NCBI GenBank assembly: GCA_029213045.1
Contig: JARGPN010000001.1
Span: 62,001-126,000 of the forward strand
Reading direction: 5' to 3'
DNA from: Alcanivoracaceae bacterium
GTDB lineage: Bacteria; Pseudomonadota; Gammaproteobacteria; Pseudomonadales; Alcanivoracaceae
DNA length: 64,000 nucleotides
The translations under genes were made by a program, and so were the position numbers. The first letter of the stretch is position 1; each line of letters opens with the position of its first letter. Below are positions 23,272-27,872 of the stretch, piece after piece. The notes beneath the pieces were generated by a model. It did not search any database and had not been told where the DNA came from. It was given only the letters and a program-made list of their open reading frames with translations.

Positions 23272-23919
23272 ATGATGAATGTTGGTCTTATCCGCTCTGC
23301 ATTGACGTGTTTTTCGATGATGATGCTCTTGCCCGCCGTCGCGCTGGCGGGGCCAAAGGAATCTTCGAGCGAGCAGTCCTCCAACAGTGATACAGTGCGC
23401 AGCCGGCACATTTACGGTGTGGTCGAAGAGGTCTATGTCGAGGAGCTGGGCATCCGCTTGTCGACGAAAGTGGATACTGGTGCGGAGAGCGCGTCGTTAA
23501 GTGCGACGGAAATCGAGCGCTTTAAGCGCGACGACGAAAAGTGGGTGCGCTTCAATCTTGCCGTCAAAGGCTTTGAAACCAAGCAAATAGAATTACCGTT
23601 ATCTCACAATGTTCGCATTCTTCGTCGGGCTTCAGATTATGAGAGAGGCGCAGACAAAGATTACGCACGTCGTCCAGTTGTTGAATTGACGTTATGTGTG
23701 GGAAATCGGAAGGCCAAATTCAATGTGAATTTGGCGGACCGTCGTCGATTTAGCCAGCCAATGCTAATAGGCCGTGATGCATTAGTGGGGTTGGGCGCGT
23801 TGGTTGACGTAAGCGCTGAGAACGCTATGGGGGCTCCGACGTGTGATGGCGCTGATCGTGCCACGCAAGCGGACCCTGAATTAATTAAAAACAATAAGTC
23901 TAGGCAAGAGGATTCCTAA
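23272..23919 (+). CDS. Retropepsin-like aspartic peptidase (putative ATP-dependent zinc protease family)
   Basis: 215-residue exported protein. The signal peptide ends near residue 26 (PAVALAG). The mature domain (about 48-185) has the aspartic-protease signature KVDTGAESASLSA with Asp68-Thr-Gly, a substrate-strand region and LIGRDALVGLGALVDVS, which is typical of PF05618. That family is named zinc protease but has a retropepsin fold. It is the first of three closely spaced genes: the next starts three bases after its stop. Families of this trio co-occur widely in gammaproteobacteria. The predicted role is proteolysis of a periplasmic peptide or protein linked to the amidoligase downstream, inferred from context. 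Confidence 0.85.
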   Translation: MMNVGLIRSALTCFSMMMLLPAVALAGPKESSSEQSSNSDTVRSRHIYGVVEEVYVEELGIRLSTKVDTGAESASLSATEIERFKRDDEKWVRFNLAVKGFETKQIELPLSHNVRILRRASDYERGADKDYARRPVVELTLCVGNRKAKFNVNLADRRRFSQPMLIGRDALVGLGALVDVSAENAMGAPTCDGADRATQADPELIKNNKSRQEDS

Positions 23920-23922
23920 TTA

Positions 23923-25461
23923 ATGCGTTCAGTGCGTTTGCACGCCACTTTGTTGGCGCTGGTGTTGCTTGCCTTGGGTTTGACCAGCGTGTTCTGGCAA
24001 GTATTTGTGCGCGACATTCCATTGCTGGAATCGGAAACAGATCCTGTTTGGATTATTGATACGCGATTAGAGTTTGATTCGAAAAAAAATAATCCAGTAA
24101 AAGTGCAAATGTTTGTTCCGCCAAATGGCGATTTCGTTACGCTGAACGAAAGTTTTGTATCGAATAACTATGGTGTGAATGTGCATAAGTCTGGCGAAAA
24201 CCGCCAGGTTACTTGGTCTACGCGACGCGCTGATGGTCATCAAGTTTTATATTATCGTCTCGTGCTCACGAGGCGTTTTTCAATCGCAGATCAAGCAGCA
24301 CCGCCAGGGCCCCAGTTCAGACAGTCAGCACCGTTACTCGGTGCAGAAGGATTAGCCGCCGAAGCATTGTTGGCGCCGATTCGCGATCAATCCGCAGACA
24401 TTGAAACTTTTATTAGTGAAACAATTCGTCGCGTCAACGACATAAAAGACGACAACGTCCGTGTGTTGTTGCGCGGCGATTATTCTGTTGCCAGTCGCGC
24501 AGGCGTTGTCGATTTGTTGTTGGCTGCTGCGCATATTCCCGCAGAGCAGGTGCATACCGTGCGTCTTGGGTTGCAGCAATCGCAAGAGCCAGAATTATGG
24601 TTGCGTAGTTATAATGGTAAAAATTGGCTGTACTTTAATCCGGCGGATGGCGTGCAAGGCTTGCCGGAGGATCGCTTGGTATGGTGGTCTGGCGATAAGC
24701 CATTAGTGAAAATTGACGGCGGTCGTCACTTACAAGTTGGCTTTAGTGTTAGTAAGAACGAGATGAGTGCGATTCAATTAGCGCAGTCGGTGCAGCCCCT
24801 GCAAGATCGATCGTTCTGGACTCTTTCGCTGTACGACTTGCCGCTCGAAGCACAACACACATTCCGCATTATCGTAATGATCCCGCTTGGTGTCTTGCTT
24901 ATTTTGTTGCTGCGAAATTTGATCGGGCTCGAAACCCTTGGCACGTTTACGCCTGTGTTAGTGGCGTTAGCATTCCGCGAAACAGATTTAATCTGGGGCA
25001 TCATTCTGTTCACGGTGATTACCGCCCTGGGCTTGTCGTTGCGTTCTTATTTAGAACAATTACGTTTGCAAATGCTGCCGCGTTTGTCGGTGGTGCTCAC
25101 GTTTGTGGTCATTTTAATTACGGTGATCAGTGTGCTAACCCATAAGTTAGGGTTAGAGCGCGGCGTGTCAGTGGCGTTGTTCCCGATGGTGATTTTAACC
25201 ATGGTCATTGAACGGCTTTCAATTGTTTGGGAGGAGCGCGGCGGCGGTCACTCAATGAAGGTCGCGTTCGGCACATTAGTCGCGGCGACGCTGGCGCATT
25301 TAATTATGTCGCCGTCAGAACTGATTTATATTTTCTTCACGTTCCCTGGCATCTTGTTAGTGCTGGTAAGTATTATGTTGTTGATGGGCCATTATCGCGG
25401 ATACCGATTAATGGAACTGATTCGCTTTAAAGCGATGACCAAAGAAACACCGGAAAAGTGA
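23923..25461 (+). CDS. Inactive transglutaminase fused to a C-terminal membrane domain
   Basis: 512-residue inner-membrane protein. An N-terminal helix (about 7-27) leads to a periplasmic transglutaminase-like domain (about 40-270). The expected Cys-His-Asp triad is absent: the Cys region reads GDYSVASRAGVVDLLL and the later region PELWLRSYNGKNWLYFNPADG. This matches the inactive transglutaminase-with-7TM family. C-terminal hydrophobic segments (about 310-495) form the membrane domain. It probably scaffolds or presents peptides between the upstream protease and the downstream cytoplasmic ligase. The next gene starts seven bases after its stop. Confidence 0.88.
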   Translation: MRSVRLHATLLALVLLALGLTSVFWQVFVRDIPLLESETDPVWIIDTRLEFDSKKNNPVKVQMFVPPNGDFVTLNESFVSNNYGVNVHKSGENRQVTWSTRRADGHQVLYYRLVLTRRFSIADQAAPPGPQFRQSAPLLGAEGLAAEALLAPIRDQSADIETFISETIRRVNDIKDDNVRVLLRGDYSVASRAGVVDLLLAAAHIPAEQVHTVRLGLQQSQEPELWLRSYNGKNWLYFNPADGVQGLPEDRLVWWSGDKPLVKIDGGRHLQVGFSVSKNEMSAIQLAQSVQPLQDRSFWTLSLYDLPLEAQHTFRIIVMIPLGVLLILLLRNLIGLETLGTFTPVLVALAFRETDLIWGIILFTVITALGLSLRSYLEQLRLQMLPRLSVVLTFVVILITVISVLTHKLGLERGVSVALFPMVILTMVIERLSIVWEERGGGHSMKVAFGTLVAATLAHLIMSPSELIYIFFTFPGILLVLVSIMLLMGHYRGYRLMELIRFKAMTKETPEK

Positions 25462-25468
25462 GGCGCCC

Positions 25469-26437
25469 ATGTTCGGAATAAGCACATGGCGAGCATTGCG
25501 TAACCGGGGTGTGTTGGGCATCAATCAGCGCAATTGCGATTTGGTGTTGAAGTATAACGATCGGCATCTTTATCCGTTGGTGGACGATAAGTTACTCACC
25601 AAGGAGCGCGCCATGGCATCTGGCATTCGCGTGCCAGAGTTGTACGGTGTGGTCTCCACCGAGCAAGGTATTTCGGAGCTGGGACAATTGCTCAGCGCGC
25701 ATTCCGATTTCGTCATTAAGCCTGCGCAAGGTGCGGGTGGCGATGGGGTGTTGGTGGTGAACGATCGCTTCGAAGGTATGTATCGCGCCAGTGGCGGAAA
25801 ATTATTATCTCTAGAAGATCTAGAGTTCCATATTTCAAGTATGTTGTCCGGCGTATATTCATTAGGCGGCCATCGTGATCGCGCGTTAATTGAATATCGT
25901 GTGAAGCCTGATCCGGTTTTTTCTGCCATAAGCTTTGAGGGCGTGCCCGATATTCGCGTTATCGTTTTGCGTGGCTATCCGGTGTTGGCGATGTTGCGCT
26001 TACCAACGCGACAAAGTAATGGAAAAGCAAATTTGCACCAGGGAGCGATTGGCGTGGGCGTGGATATCGCGACCGGCCAAACCCTAGGTGGCACTTGGCA
26101 CAACATGAAAATTCAGCGCCACCCTGACACCGCGAATCCAGTATCCGGCGTGCAGCTGCCAAACTGGAACGAATTTCTGCAGCTCTCTAGTGTGTGTTAT
26201 GAACTCACGGGGCTTGGCTATCTGGGCGTGGATTTAGTCCTAGATGAAACGCTAGGGCCGATGATTCTTGAGCTGAATGCGCGTCCGGGCCTCAATATTC
26301 AGATTGCCAATGATGTCGGCCTAATGAGCAGGGTGAAGCAAGTCGAGCATCACTTGGCGTCGACTCGATTACCTTACGGCGGTGAAACGCCGATGCAGCG
26401 TGTCCGTTGGAGCCAGGCCGCCTTCTTTAAAGAGTAG
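25469..26437 (+). CDS. Alpha-L-glutamate ligase-like ATP-grasp protein
   Basis: 322-residue cytoplasmic ATP-grasp ligase of the sugar-transfer-associated or RimK-like type. ATP-binding features are FVIKPAQGAGGDGVLVV (about 87-103), the LIEYRVKPD region and the metal-binding ILELNARPGLNIQIAN near residue 262-277. Such enzymes join an amino acid or peptide to a carboxylate through an acyl phosphate. The acceptor here is unknown. It is the third gene of the protease/inactive transglutaminase/ligase trio. Weak upstream site; ATG at 25469 follows GAGGCGCCC. It ends in a perfect nine-base inverted repeat. Confidence 0.87.
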   Translation: MFGISTWRALRNRGVLGINQRNCDLVLKYNDRHLYPLVDDKLLTKERAMASGIRVPELYGVVSTEQGISELGQLLSAHSDFVIKPAQGAGGDGVLVVNDRFEGMYRASGGKLLSLEDLEFHISSMLSGVYSLGGHRDRALIEYRVKPDPVFSAISFEGVPDIRVIVLRGYPVLAMLRLPTRQSNGKANLHQGAIGVGVDIATGQTLGGTWHNMKIQRHPDTANPVSGVQLPNWNEFLQLSSVCYELTGLGYLGVDLVLDETLGPMILELNARPGLNIQIANDVGLMSRVKQVEHHLASTRLPYGGETPMQRVRWSQAAFFKE

Positions 26438-26504: not shown

Positions 26505-26553
26505 CCGCCCCCTATTTCATAACAGCGATCCTAGTCGCCGGAAGTTTTTGCCT

Positions 26554-27642
26554 GTGTCCGTTTCTGAAGTTGTTCCTCGTCGTGCTATTGCGCTTGTCTC
26601 AGGTGGTCTCGATTCCATGCTTGCTGTGAAGGTAATGCAGGATCAGGGCATCGAAGTAGAAGGCGTGAATTTTTATACTGGGTTTTGTGTAGAGGGGCAT
26701 ACACACGCCATTCGCGAAAAAGATAAAGGCAAAGACAAGCGTAATAATGCGCTTTGGGTTGCCGAGATGCTGGGCATTAAGCTGCACATCATTGATATCT
26801 CTGAAGAATATAAAGATGTGGTGCTGAACCCAAAGCATGGTTACGGCGCCCATATGAACCCGTGTCTAGACTGCAAAATCTTTATGGTTGGCAAGGCAAA
26901 CCTAATGCTCAACAAGGCGCGAGACTTGGCGGCAGACAAGGGCTTTGATTTTATTGTCACCGGCGAAGTGATTGGCCAACGGCCGAAATCCCAGCGTAAA
27001 CAAACCTTGCCAATGATCGCGCGCGAGTCTGGTGCGGAAGATCGTTTGCTCCGCCCGCTTTGCGCTAAAAATATGGAACCGACGTTGCCTGAGCGGGAAG
27101 GCTGGGTGGATCGCGACAAGCTACATGATTTCCATGGCCGTAATCGCAAGCCACAAATGGCTCTGGCGAAGCATTTTGGTTTGGATGACTACGCGCAGCC
27201 AGCGGGTGGGTGCTGCTTTTTAACCAATGAAACCTATTCGAAAAAGTTGGTGGATTTGTGGCAAGCCCGTGATAAGCGTGATTATGAACTCGACGACATT
27301 ATGTTGTTAAAAGTCGGCCGTCATATTCGTCCGCGTTCGCATTTTAAGCTGATCGTCAGCCGTGAGGCCGGCGAGAATGCCTTTCTAGATGGCTACCGTT
27401 ATTTGTTTACCAGCATGCACACGGTTAGCCACAAAGGACCGCTGGCATTAATCGATGGCAAGTTAGAAAGCGCGGATGAAGAGGCGCTGGCGGCCTCGAT
27501 TGTGGCCCGTTATTCCCAAGGACGCAGTGCCGAGGCGGTCACCGTAGAGATTCGCAGCCCGGATGGCGTGTGCAAGCAAGTGACCGTGCCGCCCATGCCG
27601 ATTGACGCGGTGTTGCCCGAGTGGCATGTGGGGGATGTATGA
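26554..27642 (+). CDS. PP-loop ATPase of the MnmA-like/thiolase-type tRNA sulfurtransferase group
   Basis: About 362-residue cytoplasmic protein. The PP-loop SGGLDS is at residues 16-21. Two cysteine motifs follow: NPCLDCKIF (about 106-114), which resembles the first catalytic Cys region of MnmA, and AGGCCFLT (about 224-231). The C-terminal segment LLKVGRHIRPRSHFKLIVSR resembles a DUF814/NFACT-R-like domain. This suggests ATP-dependent sulfur insertion, perhaps into tRNA. It is not MnmA itself. The GTG at 26554 is used; a TTG at 26548 is also possible, both behind GGAAG. Its stop overlaps the start of a TusA-like gene (ATGA). Confidence 0.75.
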   Translation: MSVSEVVPRRAIALVSGGLDSMLAVKVMQDQGIEVEGVNFYTGFCVEGHTHAIREKDKGKDKRNNALWVAEMLGIKLHIIDISEEYKDVVLNPKHGYGAHMNPCLDCKIFMVGKANLMLNKARDLAADKGFDFIVTGEVIGQRPKSQRKQTLPMIARESGAEDRLLRPLCAKNMEPTLPEREGWVDRDKLHDFHGRNRKPQMALAKHFGLDDYAQPAGGCCFLTNETYSKKLVDLWQARDKRDYELDDIMLLKVGRHIRPRSHFKLIVSREAGENAFLDGYRYLFTSMHTVSHKGPLALIDGKLESADEEALAASIVARYSQGRSAEAVTVEIRSPDGVCKQVTVPPMPIDAVLPEWHVGDV

Positions 27643-27872
27643 CCGAGCGTGCGCAGCTTGATGCAAGGCGGTTACTCTGTCCGATGCCGGTCATCAAGAC
27701 GCAGAACCGTGTTGCAGAGTTGGAAAATGGCGCTGAGCTGGAAGTGATTTGTACTGATCCAGGGGTGTTGCACGATATCCCCGCGTGGTGCCGTGTGAAC
27801 GGTCATGAAGTGCTGGAAACAGGGCGCCGCGAGAATGAGATTTTCGTCGTTTTGAGGGTGTCGCACAGTTAA
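27639..27872 (+). CDS. TusA-like sulfur carrier protein
   Basis: 77-residue protein of the TusA family. The motif LDARRLLCPMPVIKTQ (about 6-21) contains the persulfide-carrying Cys in the CPxP signature. Later CTDPGVLHDIPAWC RVNGHEV elements match the family fold. It overlaps the PP-loop gene by four bases (ATGA), so it is probably the sulfur donor for that enzyme. This pairing is known in other genomes, but the product of the pair is not settled. The ATG at 27639 is chosen for the overlap; longer frames begin inside the upstream gene. Confidence 0.88.
   Translation: MTERAQLDARRLLCPMPVIKTQNRVAELENGAELEVICTDPGVLHDIPAWCRVNGHEVLETGRRENEIFVVLRVSHS

Follow-up and report, generated by a model that had tools for sequence, protein, structure and literature searches.

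The best described relative of the locus analyzed here is the rlo system of Pseudomonas aeruginosa. Its protease RloA, which carries a signal peptide, has been reported to cleave runs of eight or ten glutamates in vitro but not runs of six, and to cut poly-Glu placed either inside proteins or at their C-terminus (PMC12239564). Residues D48, R114 and R137 of this enzyme are required in vivo, three RloA proteases are redundantly required for salt-free growth, and the low-salt growth of the triple protease mutant is fully rescued by deleting rloB, rloC or both; the same study links rlo to low-salt survival, cell shape, biofilm and ampicillin sensitivity (PMC12239564). The poly-Glu cleavage, the hypoosmotic phenotype and the rloB/rloC rescue are known from P. 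aeruginosa only. In a P. aeruginosa flagellar mutant whose exopolysaccharide is raised, transposon insertions in each of the three rlo genes suppress the mutant phenotype (PMC7314104), and disruption of the RloB gene in Shewanella vesiculosa increases vesicle output and alters the uniformity of vesicle size (PMC12096838). Polyglutamate made in vivo by an rlo system has not been reported. The other relevant precedent is RimK, which in the presence of RimB yields poly-alpha-L-glutamate chains reaching 28 residues (PMC11957791).

The operon of the window and its three proteins

The window, a 64,000-nt stretch of an Alcanivoracaceae genome, contains three forward-strand genes in the order rloA (23272-23919), rloB (23923-25461) and rloC (25469-26437), separated by gaps of 3 and 7 bp, as the earlier note on this DNA had read them. 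Its placement of the products in the PF05618, PF14400/PF14402 and ATP-grasp families agrees with our Pfam and NCBIfam profile searches. The region 23272-26437 is almost certainly the rloABC operon already named in P. aeruginosa in 2025 (PMC12239564). The description of the locus as an under-described system is thus out of date, since the operon has been named and partly characterized (PMC12239564) and dedicated NCBIfam models exist. A promoter scan of the locus returned matches only at chance level. Downstream of rloC (26548-27872) we noticed a gene for a ThiI/MnmA-like sulfur-transfer protein overlapping one for a TusA-like protein, followed by glnA; these were named by eye and appear to form a tRNA or cofactor thiolation pair.

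RloA (215 aa) is a retropepsin-like aspartic peptidase, assigned by PF05618 (5.8e-30) and by the nearest NCBIfam model RloA1 (1.6e-47, a score that, like that of RloB against its own model, falls under the strict cut-off of the model); the related solved structures are the P. aeruginosa retropepsin-like proteins (9g58_A, E 8.8e-36). Its N-terminus MMNVGLIRSALTCFSMMMLLPAVALA (23272-23349), with one hydrophobic segment at residues 9-27, is signal-peptide-like as judged by eye and by hydropathy, and the DTG signature lies at residues 68-70, with D68 as the catalytic aspartate. In the alignment, D68 and the poly-Glu-binding residues K66, R134 and R157 correspond to D48, K46, R114 and R137 of the P. 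aeruginosa enzyme, R134 and R157 thereby being equivalent to the poly-Glu residues that are essential in vivo. Among 46 aligned sequences D68 is invariant, R134 and R157 are each conserved in 45, and position 66 is Lys or Arg in 45.

RloB (512 aa) comprises an N-terminal transmembrane helix, a periplasmic beta-sandwich with an inactive transglutaminase module (residues 39-282; 24037-24768), and a C-terminal 7TM domain (residues 291-512; 24793-25458). It matches PF14400 (2.4e-41) and PF14402 (1.3e-95), as well as the NCBIfam RloB model NF052267 over residues 1-508 of 508 (1.4e-241, 802.6 bits). The protein contains no cysteine at all, and the columns of the catalytic triad, as set by the active relatives, are occupied by V189, E224 and N239. 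An AF2 model of the whole protein, calculated from an alignment of close relatives only (62-84% identity), gives pLDDT values mostly of 73-85 for the periplasmic module, with dips at residues 120-140, and a poor membrane domain; modeling of the 7TM domain alone (pLDDT 53) brought no improvement, and hydropathy resolves only five clear helices in this part. In structure the periplasmic module best matches 3isr_A, a putative cysteine protease of the transglutaminase-like kind (Z 14.7, 217 residues aligned, rmsd 3.7), followed by the periplasmic domain of P. aeruginosa TgpA (Z 6.4).

RloC (322 aa) is an alpha-L-glutamate-ligase-like protein of the ATP-grasp superfamily; ligases of this kind ligate glutamate. 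It retains the ATP-grasp residues, with K84, the segment SNGKANLHQGA (183-193), D255, E268 and N270 conserved. Its match to PF14397 (1.6e-91) stands against a mere 8e-7 for RimK PF08443, and it exceeds the cut-off of TIGR02291 (488.5 bits, 7e-147, versus 314.2) while remaining far below those of the NCBIfam RimK models TIGR00768 (43.1 versus 143.4) and PRK10446 (14.8 versus 331). Thus, the protein earlier called a RimK-like ATP-grasp ligase is indeed an ATP-grasp enzyme, albeit one nearest to PF14397/TIGR02291 and not RimK proper. Because the likeness to RimK is so distant, its substrate and product are given here as inferences. The other two proteins bear out the earlier reading, namely an exported protease with a DTG signature and a transglutaminase-like domain devoid of its triad and fused to a membrane domain, and the compartments proposed there for the trio hold as well.

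Co-conservation, sister operons and evolutionary history

Analysis of 321 gammaproteobacterial genomes reveals a tight association of RloB and RloC: PF14400 is present in 60 genomes, TIGR02291 (E<1e-25) in 60, and both in 59. The two exceptions are G181, which encodes an RloB-RloC fusion missed by PF14400, and G174, where RloB is a fragment with a stop. Locus-by-locus reading separated two kinds of loci, 52 with an inactive RloB and 13 with an intact triad. RloA lies directly upstream of the inactive RloB in 49 of the 52, so that the co-conservation of the trio, asserted earlier, held up when co-occurrence was counted. In one genome (G275, locus L072) an inactive-type RloB and RloC occur with no PF05618 gene genome-wide, an exception to the RloA pairing. 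Among 82 further loci near relatives of the window, RloC is adjacent in all and RloA was detected in 81. Within GTDB, a gammaproteobacterial MAG is the closest relative (84% identity in RloB), followed by Pseudomonas and Alcanivorax (62-65%). The typA gene adjoins the rlo genes also in this MAG and in two Alcanivorax, and the A-B-C order is found beside typA in L104 and L160; the MAG and one Alcanivorax carry, farther downstream of rlo, a relative of the window gene at 26548-27642. No RloB was found in viral collections.

The 13 loci of the second kind (L085-L091, L252-L256 and L264) encode RloB proteins that keep the Cys-His-Asp triad, in the motifs GEASCNGK, HQW and FDTIND (RQASCNGKS, HQW and FDPTND in the fusion). 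A neighboring retropepsin is absent from all of them, and three of the genomes (G071, G304 and G197) lack any PF05618 gene. In all 13 a TPR protein with an N-terminal anchor in the inner membrane is encoded 3' of RloC (about 640 aa, 809 aa in the fusion operon), and in 11 there is additionally an exported protein of about 395 aa (one contig ends before it). This protein looks like an outer-membrane barrel, to judge from an N-terminus typical of export, the aromatic residue with which several members end, and matches, all of them weak, to OMP_b-brl, BBP2_2 and EpsL. The fusion in G181 is a single 838-aa ORF (L264, 5476-7989) that joins an active-triad RloB to RloC and is followed by the TPR protein. 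In two alphaproteobacterial-looking genomes we also found a membrane-only RloB (a 373-aa frame in one of them) beside RloC and a barrel-like exported protein. What stays invariant throughout is thus the membrane domain of RloB together with RloC. One genome (G033, C40 and C115) holds both forms, namely an active-triad RloB that lacks a retropepsin and an inactive-type RloB that is paired with one and whose own frame has a stop. In the papers searched, preprints not among them, we found no description of the active-transglutaminase sister operon, of the RloB-RloC fusion or of a single-switch history.

In the RimK-rooted RloC tree all 49 inactive-type sequences fall into one clade (support 100/98). 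Active-type sequences branch off to either side of the base, and the fusion takes the outermost position; the support of the deep branches is moderate (92/78 and 86/55). The counts of neighboring genes share this phylogeny and are therefore not phylogenetically independent. Because the inactive loci form a single clade and the active forms straddle the base, the active form, with its export-like genes, probably came first, and the rlo form of the window was probably derived from it by one swap, in which the triad and the exporter were lost and the retropepsin was gained. The ancestor of the window operon was thus probably a larger operon resembling a polymer exporter.

A proposed pathway and its rivals

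The earlier note proposed that an adduct is made inside the cell, presented at the membrane and trimmed by the periplasmic protease. This scheme fits the P. aeruginosa genetics and biochemistry (PMC12239564) as well as our comparative data, although the product is most likely polyglutamate and not a generic amino-acid or peptide adduct. We propose that cytosolic RloC polymerizes alpha-L-glutamate, as RimK does, that the RloB membrane domain accepts the resulting polymer from RloC and hands it on into the periplasm, where it may be bound or guided by the inactive transglutaminase domain, and that periplasmic RloA trims it to length. The anionic oligomer could contribute fixed charge, act osmotically or modulate the wall, and the untrimmed chain would be toxic in low salt. 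The division of labor in which RloC makes poly-alpha-L-glutamate, RloB moves it to the periplasm and RloA trims it seems to us somewhat likelier to be right than wrong. The RloB-RloC fusion requires that the C-terminus of RloB be on the cytosolic (ATP) side, and this fits a periplasmic position of the transglutaminase domain between the N-terminal helix and the 7TM domain. In the probable ancestor, the RloB-RloC core may have fed an outer-membrane export line in which the polymer was processed or attached by the active transglutaminase. A wider claim, to which we give rather less than an even chance, is that RloB-RloC constitutes a novel polymer synthase-exporter, in which a 7TM translocator is coupled to an ATP-grasp ligase and the pair delivers non-ribosomal poly-alpha-L-glutamate into the Gram-negative periplasm, with an active transglutaminase and outer-membrane export in the older lineage and a retropepsin that trims the retained polymer in the rlo lineage.

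The ability of RloA to cleave poly-Glu within proteins or at their C-terminus is also what would be expected if RloC, together with RloB, tagged a membrane or exported acceptor with glutamate tails that RloA removes. Such polyglutamylation of envelope proteins has a precedent in the action of RimK/RimB on ribosomal protein S6, and it was left open by the authors of the P. aeruginosa study (PMC12239564); yet the operon has no conserved acceptor gene, and a modification system would not need the export-like TPR and barrel genes of the sister operons. It is because of these genes that we favor a polymer over protein tagging, which we consider unlikely, if a serious contender. A route through the cell wall, in which RloC attaches glutamate or a peptide to a precursor, either lipid-linked or of peptidoglycan, RloB flips it and RloA trims it, would account for the wall-related phenotypes of the mutants (hypoosmotic death, shape defects and ampicillin sensitivity; PMC12239564) and would suit the Pfam name of PF14397, "sugar-transfer associated". 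Nevertheless, no Mur, lipid-carrier or glycosyltransferase genes were seen in the neighborhoods we read, and RloA requires a run of eight alpha-linked glutamates, which no standard stem peptide has, so that this route appears improbable. Inactive enzyme domains often act as sensors, and the phenotypes are pleiotropic, including the altered vesicle number and size uniformity in S. vesiculosa (PMC12096838); RloB could accordingly sense, from the membrane, a wall or polymer ligand bound by its dead transglutaminase domain, with RloC as the output enzyme and RloA modulating the signal. The retention of the active triad in sister RloB proteins beside export-like genes, and the existence of the RloB-RloC core as one protein, argue against a signaling module, in our view the least probable of the explanations.

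The polyglutamate pathway is made testable by the comparative result: its core is RloB-RloC, the sister operons resemble polymer export lines, and the protease half can be exchanged for an active transglutaminase.

Comparison with known systems

The operon of the window shares with P. aeruginosa rloABC the identical three families and gene order; its RloA keeps the catalytic and the key substrate residues, and its RloB matches NF052267 from end to end. It differs in that the RloA and RloB scores lie below the NCBIfam "exception" cut-offs, which derive from close relatives, in that H112 and L117 take the place of R92 and K97 in P. aeruginosa RloA, and in that P. aeruginosa has three rloA genes whereas this genome has one rloA and a RimB-like gene. 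With the sister operon of active-triad RloB, RloC, TPR and barrel-like proteins it has the RloB-RloC core in common; there the triad is intact, the retropepsin is absent, and genes for the periplasmic TPR protein and the outer-membrane-barrel-like protein are added.

The RimB-RimK pair, a cytosolic version of which is encoded elsewhere in the genome of the window (C10, L095), likewise combines a retropepsin with an ATP-grasp glutamate ligase. However, RimB is cytosolic (a 151-aa frame without a signal peptide), the pair has no membrane partner, and on the tree long branches (7.1 and 2.9) separate RloC from RimK. In one genome (G114) RimK-like and RimB-like genes on the reverse strand stand head to head with rloA-rloB on the forward strand within 2 kb (L063, 417-2418), an arrangement which suggests that rim and rlo were once at one locus.

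We also considered the RloB 7TM domain as a homolog of PgsC/CapC, with which it can be aligned by eye almost without gaps (GVLL...G.....P...L.F), but the hhalign probability is only 0.2-4% and no homology is claimed. PF14102 had no match at E<=10 in 28 RloB proteins, and the score of PgsC (a B. subtilis sequence, matching PF14102 at 3e-38) against the RloB HMM was equaled by 128 of 200 hydropathy-keeping shuffles. Scored with a CapC HMM, the RloB 7TM domains share their median with unrelated membrane proteins, and their upper tail is heavier. In a test with 1000 shuffles, two of six proteobacterial CapC repeats scored above every shuffle and the remaining four did not; no relative of proteobacterial CapC was found in viral collections or, by tblastn, in plasmids. 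Proteins of about 1,080 aa, each with two CapC-like domains, are encoded in L267 (13688-16936) and L268 (8486-11722), their neighbors being a large CHASE2/histidine-kinase-like protein and a protein of 818-824 aa that has no Pfam match (tested in L268). They represent an undescribed CapC-type operon in family f195, other genomes of which carry the active-RloB operon.

The likeness to the gamma-polyglutamate synthase PgsBCA/CapBCA is one of functional analogy, as both comprise a cytosolic ligase, a small membrane subunit and a hydrolase outside, whereas the ligase of the rlo system belongs to another family and would form alpha links. Polyglutamate, should it be found, would represent an envelope polymer not recognized before, widespread in Gammaproteobacteria and made by a ligase and membrane protein of a design distinct from PgsBCA.
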